This document shows, piece after piece, positions 32,360 through 37,677 of a stretch of 59,914 bases of DNA. Below the pieces are notes generated by a model. It was not told the origin of the DNA and searched no databases. It saw only the letters and a list, made by a program, of their open reading frames with translations. How positions within the stretch are numbered: position 1 is the stretch's first letter; each line of letters opens with the position of its first letter. The position numbers and the translations under genes are program-made. The stretch is from Sphaerotilus uruguayifluvii. Its GTDB lineage: Bacteria > Pseudomonadota > Gammaproteobacteria > Burkholderiales > Burkholderiaceae_C. The stretch lies in NCBI RefSeq assembly GCF_013294065.1, contig NZ_JABSNM010000003.1, positions 229,459 through 289,372 of the forward strand. Direction: 5' to 3'.

Positions 32360-32666
32360 GACGGGAAAGGCTCTCGGAGTCGGTGGGGTGCGGCGACGTG
32401 AACGCAGTGCCGCCGCAGGACTGCGAGCGCTTGACCTGGGGACCGGTCGGAGGCGGCTGGGGAAGCCGCCGGCACCGGGCCGCAGAATTTGGGCCCGATG
32501 AACGATTCTACGCGGGGTCGTGACATCCTCGGCACCACGAAGGGGCATTCCCGCCACGCCCCGATGGACAGAAAAGCGCCGGAATTTTCCACTTCCTCTT
32601 CGCTTCAAGCGCGCGATTTTCCGGATTTTCCGGATCGATCCCCAGACTCCAGGAAGGAAGTGACCG
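32360..32666. other. 307-bp divergent intergenic region between guaC and the caspase gene
   Basis: No gene is seen. The half toward guaC has a TAGAAT-type -10 on the minus strand (32508-32513). The half toward the caspase gene is AT-richer than its surroundings and has a direct repeat GATTTTCCG/GATTTTCCG at 32615-32632, about 35 bp before the caspase start. A strong Shine-Dalgarno (AGGAAGGAAGTGA) precedes ATG 32667. Confidence 0.6.
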
Positions 32667-33644
32667 ATGAGTGCCCCTGCTCCCACCCCGGCCCCGAAGA
32701 AGACCTCCAGCGCCGGCGCCAGCCCCCGCGCCACCCCCGCGGCGGCGCCGGCCGCGGCCCGGCGCACCGCGCTGTCGCTGCACATCGGCCTCAATGCCGT
32801 CAGCCCGGCCAGCTATGCGGGCTGGAGCGGCGAGCTCGCCGCCTGCGAGGCCGACGCGAACGACATGAAGGCGATCGCGGTGTCGAAGGGCCTGCGGCCG
32901 ACCGTGCTGCTGACGGCGCAGGCCACCCGCGCGGCGGTGCTGGCAGCGCTGCGCTCGGCGGCCAAGGCGCTGAAGTCGGGCGACTTCTTCCTGCTGACCT
33001 ACTCCGGCCACGGCGGCCAGGTGCCCGACACCAGCGGCGACGAGCCCGACCGCCAGGACGAGACCTGGTGCCTGTGGGACGGCCAGCTGATCGACGACGA
33101 GCTCTACCTCGAGCTGAGCCGCTTCGCCGCCGGCGTGCGCGTGCTGGTGCTGTCCGACAGCTGCCACAGCGGCAGCGTCACCCGCGAGATGCCGCCGCCG
33201 GCGCCGCCGGCAGGCCTGCCGCGCCCGCGCCTGATGCCGCCGCAGATCGCGCAGAAGACCTACCGCGACCACCGCGACTTCTACGACCGGCTGCAGAAGG
33301 AGGTCGCCGCCGAGGCGGCCCGGGCCGGCGGCGTCGTCGAGCCGGACGCCGCGCTGGCGCAGGTGCGCGTCGACAGCCCGCGCCTGACCGGCGTCGTGAC
33401 CGGCTTCGCGCCGTCGGTCATCCTGATCTCTGGCTGCCAGGACAACCAGACCTCGATGGACGGCGAGTTCAACGGCGCCTTCACCGGCCGGCTGCTGCAG
33501 GTCTGGAACCGCGGCAGCTTCGGCGGCAACTACACCCAGTTCCGCAACGTCATCGTCGCCGGCATGGCGCCGACGCAGACGCCCAACCTGTTCGTGCTCG
33601 GCCCCTGCACGAGCTTCCTGGCGCAGAAGCCCTTCACGGTGTGA
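32667..33644 (+). CDS. Caspase-family (metacaspase-like, C14) peptidase
   Basis: A 325-residue cytoplasmic protein. A 33-residue Ala/Pro-rich tail precedes a p20-like caspase domain ([12 protein letters not shown]). The catalytic dyad is intact: His115 in [10 protein letters not shown] and Cys166 in [10 protein letters not shown]. The acidic segment [15 protein letters not shown] between them is typical of type I metacaspases, which cut after Arg or Lys. There is no signal peptide. ATG 32667 has a strong ribosome binding site. Its last codon overlaps the GTG start of the CHAT gene, so both are coupled. Such pairs have been proposed in cell-death or defence settings; substrate and trigger here are unknown. 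Confidence 0.9.
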
Positions 33645-36415
33645 GCCCGCGGCTGCAGGTGCGGGTCTGCGCCGGCGACCTGCGCGATGCCGGCGTGCCG
33701 CTGCTGGTCGGGCACTACGAGCATGACCCGATCGCCGGGCCGCAGGCGCTGATCGACCGCGAGCTGCTCGGCGGCGCGCTGGGCGAGCGCCACCGGCTCG
33801 GGCTGTACGCCGGCGCGCTGGGCAGCGCCACCGTCGTGCTGCCGCCGCCGCGTCCGGGGGCCGGGCTGCAGGGCGCGGTCGTCACCGGCCTGGGCCCGTA
33901 TGACGGCACGCTGGGCGCGCGCGAGCTGACCGAGGCGGTGCGCACCGGCGCGCTGCGCCTGCTGCTGCAGGTGCGCGACCAGTTCGGACCGGGCGAGCGC
34001 GCGCTGGCGCTGGGCTCGCTGCTGATCGGCTACAACTCCTCGGCGACGCTGAGCCTGGAGACAGTGGTCGAGGCGCTGGTTCGCGGCGTGATCGAGGCCG
34101 GCCGGCGCTTCGCCGAGGTGGCCGGCCCGGCGATCCGCATCGAGCGGCTCGACCTGATCGAGCTGCACACCGACATCGCGCTGTCGGCCGCGCGGGTGCT
34201 GCAGCGGCTCGAGACGGCGCTGCGGACCGCCGCCTGGCGCGAGGGCCTGCGGCTGGACTGCGCCGCCACGCTGGTCGAGGGCGAGGGCCGCCGCCCGCGC
34301 CTGGGCGAGGCGCGCGGCGCGAGCTACTGGCCGCGCCTGCTCGTCGGCCTCGAGGGCGGCCAGCTGCACTTCCTGCACCTGGGCGCCCGCGCCCGCGCCG
34401 AGGCGCGGGGCCAACCGCTGCAGCCCGGCCTGCTCGGCGCGCTGCTGCAGCCCGGCGGCGGCCGGGACGACGATCTCGGCCGGATGCTCTTCCACCTGCT
34501 GGTGCCGCCGGAAATGCGCGACGTGGCGCGCCAGCTCGGCCAGATGGTGCTGGTGGTCGATGCGCGCAGCGCGGCCATTCCCTGGGAAATGCTGCTCGCC
34601 GACGAGGACGGCGGCTGCCGCGGCGCGCCGGCGGACCGGCCGGCCCGGCCGCCCGCGCTCGCGCTGGAGGCGCCGCTGGTGCGCCAGCTCGCCGGCGAGG
34701 TCTGGCGCCGCCAGGTGCGGCGCAGCGCCGGGCGCGCCGCGCTGGTCGTCGGCAACCCGCGGCATGACCGCGCCGACCTGCCGGACCTGCCCGGGGCCGA
34801 GCAGGAGGCCGTCGAGATCGAGCAGGTGCTGCAGCGCTGCGACCACGAGCCGGTGCGGCTGAGCGGCGCCGACGCCAGCGCCGACCGGGTGCTGCGCCAG
34901 CTCTACCGCCAGCCGCTGCGCCTCGTGCACCTGAGCGCGCACGGCGTCGTCGATGAGCCGCAGCCCGACGGCTCGCGGCGCACCGGCGTCGTGCTCTCCG
35001 GCGGGCTGGTGCTGACGGCCGTCGAGCTGGCGGCGATGGACCCGGTGCCGGAGCTGGTCTTCCTGAACTGCTGCCACCTGGGCCGCATCGACGCGCCGGC
35101 GCCGCCGGGCGTGACGCCGCCCGGCCTGGCCGCCAGCCTGGCACAGGCGCTGATCGGCATCGGCGTGCGCTGCGTCATCGCCGCCGGCTGGGCGGTCGAC
35201 GACGAGGGCGCACGCTGCTTCGGCCGCACCTTCTACGAGGCGCTGCTGGGCGAAGGCCGGGCCTTCGGCGAGGCGGTCTTCGCCGCGCGCCGGGCCACCT
35301 GGGAGGCCGGCCAGGGCCGGGACGCGACCTGGGGCGCCTTCCAGGCCTATGGCGATCCGGCCTGGCGGGCCGGCCGGACGGCCGCCGAGCCACGCAGCGC
35401 CTGTGCCGGCGCCACGGAGCCGCAGCTGCTGGGCACCGACGAGCTGATCGAGGCGCTGCGCGACCTGCGCCGCGGCGCCGGCCGGGACCCGGGCGATCCG
35501 GACGGCGAGCGGCCGCGCGCCGCGCTGCAGGCGCTGGTCGATCAGGTGCCGCCGGACTGGCTGGAGCGGGCGACGGTGCAGGCCGAGCTCGGCCGCACCT
35601 GGGCCGAGCTCGGTCAGGCCGCGCCGGCGGTGGCGCTGCTGCGCCGTGCGCTGGCCTGTCGCGGCGCGACGCTGCCGCTGCAGGGCGTCGAGCAGCTGGC
35701 CGGCGCCGAGCTGATGCTGGCACGCCGCGACGACGACCTCGCGCTGGCCCGCACCGCGCTGCGCCGGCTGCAGCGGCTGGCGCTGCTGCGGCGCGAGCGC
35801 GGCGAGCCGGCCGGCGCCGAGCAGGCGCTGGCCGCGGCACGGCTGGGCGTGGCGGCGCTGCAGGCGCGTGCGCTGCTCGCGTCGCCCCCTGGCGCCGCGC
35901 AGGCTGCGGCGCTGCGCCGGCTGCAGGCTTCACTCGACCAGGGCGCCGCGCTGCTGGCCGGCGACGAGGCGCTGACCGAGCGCATCACGCTGGCCGCGCT
36001 GCGCGCGCCGCAGACGCCGCCGCAGGCCGCCACCTGGCGCCGGCAGCTGCAGGCAGCGCGGCGGGCCGGCCGCCCGGCAGGCGCACCGGTCGATCCGCTG
36101 CGGGAGCCGCGGGCCCGGCTGGCCGAGTGGCTGCTGCAGCCGCATCCGGCGCCGACCGGCCGCGGCGCGCCGGCCCGGCCGATCGAGACGCTGCAGGCGC
36201 TCTGGCATCAGGCGCTGACGCAGCGCGCGCTGTCGCTGGCGCAGCACGCCGACGCGCTGGCCCGGCTCGAGGACCTGGTCTGGATCGCCCGCGCGCTGGC
36301 GCTGCCGGCAGACGCCGGCGACCGCCCCCGCGCACTGGCGCGCGAGCTCGGGCAGCTGCAGGGGATGCTGAAGGCGACGACGCAGGCTTCGGAGGCGCCG
36401 GGCGCGCCCGCCTGA
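33641..36415 (+). CDS. CHAT-domain protease-like protein
   Basis: A 924-residue protein that starts with GTG inside the caspase stop (GTGTGA, 33639-33644). The first 350 residues form an unassigned domain ([20 protein letters not shown] onward). The CHAT caspase-like domain spans about residues 300-590, with [11 protein letters not shown], catalytic His434 in LVHLSAHG and Cys478 in [10 protein letters not shown]; Cys477 is adjacent. The last 300 residues are helical and Ala/Arg/Leu-rich, possibly degenerate TPR-like. CHAT proteases often act with TPR or caspase-like partners, as in gasdermin-cleaving and Craspase systems. The gene ends directly against the convergent HhH gene, with no spacer. 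Confidence 0.9.
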
Positions 36416-37423
36416 TCAGGCCCGCACCCGGCGCCAGGCGCCCGCCGGCGCCACCCGCCGGTCGATCGCGCCGGGCGGCAGCGGCACCACCCGCACCCGA
36501 CGCTCCTGCGGCGGCCGCGCCAGCCCGGCGAGCACCCGCGCCTGGCCGATCCAGTCCTGGCGGCCGGCACGGTGGCCGACATGCGGCAGGTGGCGCGCCA
36601 GCCAGCGCAGCTCGCCGGCCTGCCATTCGGCGATCTGGCGGAAATACCAGACGCCGCGCCGGTTCAGCCAGGTCTGCGTCGCCGGACCGATGCCGTGAAT
36701 GCGCTCCAGATCGTCCGGCGGCGGGCTGTCGCTGCCGCGCTGCAGCGCCGCGGGCGCGCGCATCGCCGCCTCGCCGACGATGACCGCCTCCTCGGGCCGG
36801 TCGAGCTCCGAGGCCGCGCCGGTGCCGGTCACGCCGGTGCCGCGCAGCAGCGGGCGGGCGGCCACGCCGGCACGCGCGCCCTCGACGTCGCGCCGCAGCG
36901 CGCGGGGCTGGGCCTGGGCATGCGCCTGCGCGAGCTGCTTCTGCAGCAGCGCGCGCGCGCCGTCGCCCTCCTCGATCAGGCCGAGCAGCTGGGTGATCTC
37001 GGCCCGCATCAGGCCGGTCTGGTCGCGCAGCGCCCCGATCTCGCGGCGATGGGCCTCGCGCTCGGCGGCGACCTGGCGGTCGAGCCCGAGCAGCTGCTGG
37101 CACAGCGCCTGCTCGGCCTGGCGGTGGCTGGCACGGGACGCATCGATCTCGCGCCGCAGCGCCTCCTCGCGGCTCTCGGCCTCCTGGACAAGCGCCTTCA
37201 GCCGGTCCGCCTCGGCGCCGAGCCCGTGCAGGCGCGCCTCATGCTCGGCCAGCCAGTCGTCCTGCGCCTGCCAGCAGCGCCGGTGCACCGCATCGAGCGC
37301 CCGCTCCACCTGCCGGCGCATCACCAGCCGCCCCAGGCCGGCGCCGGCCAGCAGCGCACACGCGCCCACCAGCAGCAGGTCCAGCCACCACATCACCCCG
37401 AACAGTCCGAACAGCTCCGTCAC
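36416..37423 (-). CDS. Membrane-anchored coiled-coil protein with C-terminal HhH domain
   Basis: A 335-residue protein. An N-terminal membrane segment (MWWLDLLLVGACALLAGAG, residues about 11-30) is followed by a long coiled coil (about 40-170, with repeated Glu/Arg/Leu heptads) and an Ala-rich linker. The C-terminal domain DLERIHGIGPATQTWLNRRG, with FRQIAEWQAGELRWLARHL, matches the helix-hairpin-helix domain found at the end of some NuoE proteins and in L21-like or DUF4332 proteins. GTG 37423 is chosen because AAGGAG lies 6 nt upstream. An ATG at 37504 in frame lacks one. It is convergent with the CHAT gene and divergent from the GGDEF-EAL gene. Function unknown. Confidence 0.75.
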   Translation of the reverse strand: MTELFGLFGVMWWLDLLLVGACALLAGAGLGRLVMRRQVERALDAVHRRCWQAQDDWLAEHEARLHGLGAEADRLKALVQEAESREEALRREIDASRASHRQAEQALCQQLLGLDRQVAAEREAHRREIGALRDQTGLMRAEITQLLGLIEEGDGARALLQKQLAQAHAQAQPRALRRDVEGARAGVAARPLLRGTGVTGTGAASELDRPEEAVIVGEAAMRAPAALQRGSDSPPPDDLERIHGIGPATQTWLNRRGVWYFRQIAEWQAGELRWLARHLPHVGHRAGRQDWIGQARVLAGLARPPQERRVRVVPLPPGAIDRRVAPAGAWRRVRA

Positions 37424-37677
37424 CTCGATCTCCTTGACTTCGCCGCCCGGCCCGGCCGCCTCGGTGAGGACCCGGGTTGCGCAGGCCTGTCGACAAAGTA
37501 ACAATGTGAAACAGATTCGATCTTGCGAAAGAAATCACGCCACAAGGTGAACGGGACCTGATCACGTCCGTCGCGGGACCGGTGAGGGAAAGCGCTGCTC
37601 AAGGTTTTTTCCTTTTCCGGGTGCTACCGTTGCAACATCGTTCTGCTTCTCGAACCCTCCCCGGTTCACAGACACCC
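37424..37677. other. 254-bp divergent intergenic region
   Basis: No gene is supported. It is clearly AT-richer than its neighbours, with a T-run (GGTTTTTTCC) near 37605, and should hold the promoters of the HhH gene and of the GGDEF-EAL gene. No clear -35/-10 pair was found. Confidence 0.5.

Follow-up and report, generated by a model that had tools for sequence, protein, structure and literature searches.

Our analyses of a stretch of 59,914 nucleotides (nt) from Sphaerotilus uruguayifluvii (contig NZ_JABSNM010000003.1, positions 229,459 to 289,372; hereafter the window) concern two adjoining genes for caspase-fold proteases, viz. a metacaspase and a protease with a CHAT domain. The coupling of these two genes is well supported by their arrangement in the window, by their recurrence in other genomes and by the conservation of both catalytic dyads. 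We give about an even chance to the pair being a two-protease switch, in which a sensor-type CHAT protein controls a metacaspase that acts as the executioner of a suicide or dormancy response. Comparison with the longer CHAT proteins of relatives suggests that a widespread and so far unstudied system has kept the pair as its core, while its further enzymatic parts have decayed and disappeared.

Linkage and conservation of the metacaspase and CHAT genes

Both open reading frames (ORFs) of the initial annotation were verified at the coordinates given in Table 1, the metacaspase gene being followed by the CHAT gene in one operon-like unit. The two genes overlap by 4 nt, as had been noticed (GTGA at 33641-33644, the CHAT start lying on the metacaspase stop), while the string GTGTGA (33639-33644) that was quoted for the overlap is the last codon and stop of the first ORF. 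The same 4-nt overlap is possible in the loci L104, L105, L106 (TTG) and L054 of relatives; with the window counted, these are the four genomes with a short CHAT form and L054. Genome-wide, the pair supplies the sole Peptidase_C14 match and the sole CHAT match over the cut-off, a second CHAT match being sub-threshold.

The first ORF combines the Peptidase_C14 fold (66.9 bits; cut-off 21.4) with a His/Cys dyad and with kinship to solved metacaspases, its family profile matching Geobacter GSU0716 (3bij, E 5.5e-77) and yeast metacaspase-1 (4f6o, E 3.9e-49); its structure was predicted with a pLDDT of 76.7. The second ORF combines a CHAT domain (119.9 bits; cut-off 24) with a dyad of its own. The dyads assigned in the initial annotation, His115/Cys166 and His434/Cys478, were each intact in 26 of 26 aligned rows and then in all rows of larger alignments (50 of 50 for the caspases, 100 of 100 for the CHAT proteins). 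The residue before the CHAT dyad Cys is Cys in 99 rows and Ala in one, that of relative L054, and Cys478, not Cys477, is therefore the likely nucleophile. The ratio of nonsynonymous to synonymous substitution (dN/dS, Nei-Gojobori) ranged from 0.36 to 0.83 and stayed below 1 in all comparisons, which, together with the conservation of the dyads throughout, argues that the pair is more than chance; the highest value, 0.83 between the CHAT genes of the window and L104, indicates that the window CHAT protein evolves fast.

The two genes also co-occur across the order. Among 399 genomes sampled, with both families called at E ≤ 1e-20, the CHAT family was found in 25, the small caspase in 26 and both in 16, where 1.6 would be expected (Fisher p 6e-16, uncorrected for kinship). 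Fifteen of these genomes are other than the window's, and 11 of them have both genes on one contig and strand, the remaining 4 having them on different contigs; in 10 of the 11 the CHAT core is preceded by the caspase at 2.9-3.9 kb, a distance that is about the length of the hydrolase part described below, and in 1 the caspase is downstream. In a set of near genomes, the CHAT family is present in 26 of 149; the metacaspase of the window subfamily (≥59% identity) is present in 18, including the window's, 15 of which also have the CHAT family, with the two genes adjacent in 8.

A search of a species-representative collection returned at least 569 stretches with CHAT relatives, and the best 80, a set biased towards close relatives and without mutual independence, were kept as named loci. 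Ten had too little upstream sequence and were set aside; a caspase lies directly upstream of the CHAT gene in 43 of the 70 others (42 by script, plus L104, which lies beyond the script's distance threshold). Gene calls in the relatives come from our own codon-usage script, and the neighbour counts lean on stop-to-stop frames (e.g., L038, L045, and L047). The initial annotation had staked its proposal on conservation of the pair outside close strains, and adjacent caspases are indeed found in loci named Burkholderiales, Accumulibacter, Zoogloea, Aromatoleum, Pseudomonas, Nitrospira, Synechococcus, and Cyanobium; the linkage is not universal. Because more than one caspase subfamily serves as the partner of CHAT, the partners must have been swapped. 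A caspase gene, a gene with TIR and response-regulator domains, and a long CHAT gene stand in a row in a Thiotrichaceae metagenome-assembled genome (L175, 4419-12919).

Domains of the two proteins and the long and short CHAT forms

The predicted structure of the window CHAT protein (pLDDT 86.9) consists of three parts. With the whole model as query, Foldseek gave Csx29 as the best match (8eex_B, E 1.3e-6), with further matches to gingipain R (1cvr, E 5.5e-6) and SAVED-CHAT (8tl0, E 7.5e-6). Two matches of about 200 columns, to a leucyl aminopeptidase (7y1s, E 2.3e-4) and to the macro domain of macroH2A (1zr3_A, E 3.8e-4, target TM 0.64), are assigned to the N-terminal ~210 residues as our own reading, since the aligned range is not printed. 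Peptidase_M17_N (PF02789) is the Pfam family most often matched by this domain (4 of 25 rows, best E 5.7e-5), the window protein itself being unmatched. The N-terminal domain that had been described as of unknown type can provisionally be named, on the model and these matches, as resembling the macro-type N-domain of leucyl aminopeptidases. For the helical C-terminal region, Pfam TPR matches in the window protein are only sub-threshold; TPR-S is over the cut-off in L048 and just under it in L053, and was not found in L040, L042 or the window protein. The S. natans protein is trimmed to 613 residues, viz. the N-domain and CHAT, most of the C-terminal part being gone.

A basic motif follows the p20 part of the metacaspase, in the linker. 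It reads R-x-R-[FLMH]-[ML]-P in 29 of 37 aligned rows and [RK]-[FL]-[ML]-P in the other 8, so that a basic linker site is present in 37 of 37 caspases. Metacaspases cut after Arg or Lys, and the site would be compatible with linker processing of the metacaspase type and with Arg/Lys cleavage.

The usual CHAT relative has about 2000 residues (most were read as open frames of about 1800-2100) and consists of two alpha/beta-hydrolase domains followed by the N-domain, CHAT, and TPR parts. A Pfam scan of four relatives placed the alpha/beta-hydrolase family DUF7379 before the N-domain in the three long ones, with an LCAT-like match in two of these three; alignment reveals the second hydrolase of L040. 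With seven loci left out whose N-terminus is cut or frame broken (L110, L120, L121, L134, L135, L137, and L146), hydrolases are kept in 81 of 93 evaluable rows, and Ser stands at both nucleophile elbows in 74 of the 83 long rows with an evaluable N-terminus.

In a tree of 100 CHAT rows (made, like our other tree, by a quick search with midpoint rooting and with the Shimodaira-Hasegawa-like approximate likelihood ratio test, SH-aLRT, as the only support; six of the 80 loci were left off as duplicates of others in it), the window protein forms one clade with those of L034 and L035 (S. natans) and L036 (S. sulfidivorans), all of them hydrolase-less (SH-aLRT 100). This short clade is sister to L040 (SH-aLRT 99) and nested in a 33-row clade (SH-aLRT 100) otherwise made up mostly of intact long forms. 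Both hydrolases of L040 are dead, with Gly for the nucleophile Ser (HGRGG and HGLGG), and in L043 and L044 the first is dead and the second absent. Because 81 of 93 rows keep their hydrolases and dead intermediates adjoin the short clade, we read the step from long to short as a loss: judged from these sequences, the hydrolases in the window's lineage were most likely inactivated and then deleted, and the long form with two hydrolases is probably ancestral.

Further short forms are L053, L054, L143, L171, and L178/L182, and the fewest state changes that account for the short forms are 6, or 7 with L043/L044, counts which cannot in themselves tell loss from gain. A single origin of the short forms is rejected (one clade of 10, p-AU 1.45e-62, in a test with long branches present and with the group named after the tree had been seen). 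It is likewise rejected that the short form is an artefact of hydrolases encoded in a separate gene, since no ORF of at least 60 amino acids (aa) in the available stretches of 10 short-form loci gave a hydrolase profile match, which means that the domains were not simply relocated to an adjacent gene; in L053 the CHAT gene is preceded by genes for a metallophosphatase and a GMC oxidoreductase. Two observations stand apart from the window's lineage. The long CHAT proteins of the cyanobacterial loci L131, L133, L135, and L146 (including Cyanobium and Synechococcus) have Gly for Ser in the second hydrolase, a separate case of decay. In Nitrospira (L178 and L182), an independent hydrolase-less CHAT gene lies directly behind a caspase of another subfamily and thus makes a second natural two-protease pair.

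Relatives share the chromosomal site of the pair, with the gene order scpA ... guaC - metacaspase - [CHAT] - thiD/E - thiG. The metacaspase stands there alone in L089 and L090, whose CHAT genes (L043/L044) are elsewhere; L040 has its long CHAT gene with dead hydrolases at this guaC-thiD site, and the window, L035, and L036 have a short one. L034 has the metacaspase and a short CHAT gene between scpA and thiD/E, a guaC match not being seen there. Beyond the metacaspase stop codon, the CHAT-bearing sites no longer show homology with the CHAT-free ones, which fits insertion or excision alike. The gene behind the metacaspase differs among other members of the genus, being of the TPR-S type in L091, of the TIR-TPR type in L092 and kin to the latter in L095-L097, and these neighbours fit a constant executioner with changing sensors. 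The proteins encoded at L092 6932-8503 (with TIR and TPR matches), L095 10499-11908, L096 8100-9923, and L097 7376-9202 have in common a C-terminal region ending YELWL..DLC.

Upstream of the pair, the initial annotation had pointed to an AT-rich region with a direct repeat. Both are present, the stretch having 53-55% GC against 73% for the genome and GATTTTCCGGAT occurring in two overlapping copies at 32615 and 32624, but neither is special: other places in the window are equally low in GC, and the repeat was not seen in the upstream stretches of five relatives compared. Both were accordingly rejected as a special feature. A 33-nt non-coding element (Table 1), unlike GATTTTCCGGAT, is common to the upstream stretches of three of these five relatives; it has one copy in each of the 4 short-CHAT genomes and none in 9 other genus members searched, the backward pattern used as a control giving 0 in 13 genomes. 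From its sequence and position it is a possible operator or promoter, and shared descent could account for its distribution.

The pair is flanked by guaC and by a protein of 335-362 aa without a Pfam match, both on the opposite strand, with a GGDEF/EAL gene nearby. In the window the latter protein (36416-37504, minus strand) has a C-terminal part that resembles the tails of the NuoE, L21, and phasin models of NCBIfam, all below the cut-off.

Table 1. Positions of the two genes, their domains and catalytic codons, and an upstream element in the window.
Feature	Position	Strand	Basis or remark
33-nt non-coding element GATGGACAGAAAAGCGCCGGAATTTTCCACTTC with GGAATTTTCC palindrome	32563-32595	+	Ends 71 nt before metacaspase start
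Metacaspase (Peptidase_C14), 325 aa	32667-33644	+	Pfam C14, E 2.8e-18, aa 49-289
Catalytic His115 codon	33009-33011	+	Conserved in caspase rows
Catalytic Cys166 codon	33162-33164	+	Conserved in caspase rows
RPRLMP motif, aa 186-191, linker after p20 part	33222-33239	+	Candidate activation-cleavage site
CHAT protease, 924 aa, GTG start	33641-36415	+	Pfam CHAT, E 1.8e-34, aa 278-572
N-domain, aa 1-210, macro/leucyl-aminopeptidase-N (M17_N)-like fold	33641-34270	+	Foldseek; placement is our reading
CHAT protease domain, aa 278-572	34472-35356	+	Pfam CHAT; Foldseek of whole model
Catalytic His434 codon	34940-34942	+	Conserved in CHAT rows
Catalytic Cys478 codon	35072-35074	+	Conserved in CHAT rows
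C-terminal all-helical TPR-like region, aa 600-916	35438-36388	+	Helices in model; family profile matches solved TPR proteins

Candidate explanations for the pair

In the two-protease switch, the CHAT protein would be a sensor-protease, activated by a ligand at its macro-like N-domain or, where this is kept, by a partner on its TPR part. The active CHAT protease would cut the co-translated metacaspase in the linker between p20 and p10, near the basic R-x-R-[FLM]-[ML]-P motif, and the cut metacaspase would degrade cell proteins and thereby bring about growth stop or cell death. The long form would carry in addition two lipase-like alpha/beta-hydrolase domains, perhaps as a second effector, whereas in the window's lineage, with the hydrolases gone, the two proteases would be the whole machine. 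The point of cleavage, the trigger, the outcome in death or dormancy and the very action of CHAT on the metacaspase are inferred, and with them the two-protease cascade, which the initial annotation had also offered as an inference. The order from CHAT to metacaspase is favoured because the CHAT proteases of known role (Csx29 and SAVED-CHAT) cut one partner upon an immune signal, while metacaspases cut many proteins. In line with this reading, the CHAT model is near to Csx29 and SAVED-CHAT, both activated by immune signals, and the two proteases, neither of which has lost its dyad, are the only effectors recognised in the short forms.

A number of observations weigh against such a switch. No caspase is adjacent in 27 of the 70 evaluable loci. 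In the order sample, the CHAT family occurs without the caspase in 9 of its 25 genomes and the caspase without CHAT in 10 of its 26; where near genomes have both genes, these lie apart in 7 of 15. Around the site, the genes that could be recognised (guaC, thi genes, scpA, metG, and GGDEF/EAL) are those of housekeeping and signalling and form no defence island. The linker motif could instead be structural, and the macro-like assignment draws on a model and on weak matches of sequence among 4 of the 25 rows scanned. The literature searched gave no activity, cleavage or phage test for any member of the family. Among viral contigs, 40 stretches matched the search pattern and none was a CHAT relative, no CHAT relative was found in 50,697 phage records, and plasmids gave only 9 distant ones (28.7-34.5% identity); on these searches an origin of the pair from phages or mobile elements is rejected. 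In the two plasmid loci viewed, no gene was labelled a caspase in the stretch shown, for which the gene table is incomplete.

The reverse order, with the metacaspase as a trigger that cuts the CHAT protein (in the long forms between the hydrolases and the rest), so that CHAT or the hydrolases are the executioners, appears unlikely to us. It would agree with the canu system, where a caspase activates a partner pro-enzyme, a nuclease (Tuck et al., 2025, PMC12799240), with the VMAP systems, where every caspase domain is accompanied by an alpha/beta-hydrolase next to it (Kaur et al., 2020, PMC7159879), and with the long CHAT proteins, most of which keep both nucleophile Ser residues. The short forms, however, have no hydrolase to release and yet keep both proteases, and the metacaspase has no recognised sensor domain, whereas the CHAT protein has two candidate sensor parts. 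We think it improbable that the two genes are independent proteases which share a promoter, the metacaspase serving some purpose of its own at the guaC-thiD site and CHAT having landed behind the end of an expressed gene. The metacaspase-only sites of L089 and L090, the near genomes in which the two genes are apart, and the stop codon at which homology with the CHAT-free site ends all speak for it, but the two genes are again adjacent in distant groups, with caspases of different subfamilies, and even genomes in which the genes are unlinked hold both more often than expected (kinship uncorrected).

Of similarly low probability is a developmental or stress-linked protease pair that serves, for example, filament or floc physiology and not antiviral defence. 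The housekeeping surroundings and the 33-nt element, whose shared presence upstream suggests regulated expression, favour such a role, as does the filamentous or floc-forming habit of Sphaerotilus, Thiothrix, Leucothrix, Zoogloea, and Accumulibacter, all holders of the CHAT family; the last argument is qualified by the Thiothrix and Leucothrix loci, which have no adjacent caspase. On the other side stand the patchy distribution (25 of 399 order genomes), the recurrent domain change and the TIR and TPR-S neighbours in some relatives, features that are typical of conflict systems.

Returning to the two-protease switch, it may be stated more specifically as a CRISPR-independent one, in which a macro-like sensor-CHAT, responsive to an ADP-ribose or NAD-derived ligand, would activate the metacaspase directly, lipase effectors would have been repeatedly discarded because the protease pair suffices, and interchangeable sensors (macro-CHAT, TIR-TPR, and TPR-S) would serve one genus; this specific version as a whole is a doubtful proposition. 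Cascades of caspase-fold proteases have been regarded as an innovation of animals; the one bacterial precedent known to us, SAVED-CHAT, is bound to CRISPR. The pair is a compact two-gene candidate for activation of one protease by another outside CRISPR, in cultured bacteria such as Sphaerotilus natans, and its relatives form a natural series (hydrolases active by sequence, dead or absent, and a metacaspase-only site) by which the effect-bearing domain becomes testable. The switch would, moreover, assign a role to a family annotated merely as "CHAT domain-containing protein" in 8 of the 9 plasmid records found.

Comparison with known defence systems

The initial annotation saw no gasdermin, CRISPR or Cas gene beside the pair, and this was borne out among the window proteins scanned, a part of the total to which no dedicated gasdermin model was applied. 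Elsewhere in the window genome (G000), on contigs other than that of the pair, there are a strong Cas10 match and Cas1 matches; contig C22, 54310-63994 (L241 and L242), with Cas1 and a Cas10 palm (E 2.9e-35), is a probable type III CRISPR locus. Among the short-pair genomes, a strong Cas10 match was found in G000 and G006 and none in G005 (S. sulfidivorans) or G010 (S. natans), in a search whose many weak matches are probably GGDEF cyclases and whose control also matched in E. coli. Because no Cas10 match over the cut-off was obtained in G005, G008 (the genome of L040), G010 or G149, all of which have the pair, CRISPR signalling is not required, and dependence on type III CRISPR is rejected as a requirement. 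PADLOC matched the metacaspase to its generic caspase model only and left the window CHAT protein and the long L040 protein unmatched. We found no description of a caspase-CHAT operon in the literature searched, which covers little of the subscription literature; in a survey of metacaspase operons (Asplund-Samuelsson et al., 2012, PMC3501461), the word CHAT is absent from the main text as far as this was available.

The pair nevertheless shares features with several known systems. With the type III-E Craspase it shares the combination of TPR and CHAT, Csx29 (TPR-CHAT) being the best structural match of the window CHAT model. In Csx29 the TPR part precedes CHAT, whereas the TPR-like part of the window protein follows it; no adjacent Cas7-11 was recognised at the window locus, and the window CHAT protein is paired with a caspase. 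The SAVED-CHAT / PCaspase proteolytic cascade of type III-B CRISPR (attributed to Steens et al., 2024) reportedly likewise sets a separate caspase beside a CHAT protease, one that the window CHAT model matches (8tl0). A SAVED-CHAT proteolytic cascade has been described (PMC11229360 and PMC11417357). The window protein differs in its C-terminal TPR part and in its macro/M17_N-like N-domain, no Pfam SAVED match being found in it at E 0.1; the family has hydrolases, and no Cas gene, including the Cas10/Cmr genes to which SAVED-CHAT is linked, was recognised among the window proteins scanned (not every gene).

The VMAP or MoxR-vWA ternary systems have a caspase and an alpha/beta-hydrolase as a pair, as do the long forms of the CHAT family, but the hydrolases of this family are fused to CHAT and are absent in the window; no MoxR, vWA or VMAP gene was found among that part of the window genes which was scanned. 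The canu system resembles the pair in having a caspase beside a partner enzyme with TPR proteins around; the partner in canu is a nuclease of the MBL fold and that in the window a CHAT protease, and the canu caspase is paracaspase-like with an Ig fold. Type IV Thoeris is reportedly a form of caspase-like immunity activated by TIR (attributed to Rousset et al., 2025), and while the window has CHAT and no TIR, a sister species (L092) has the same metacaspase adjoining a TIR-TPR gene.

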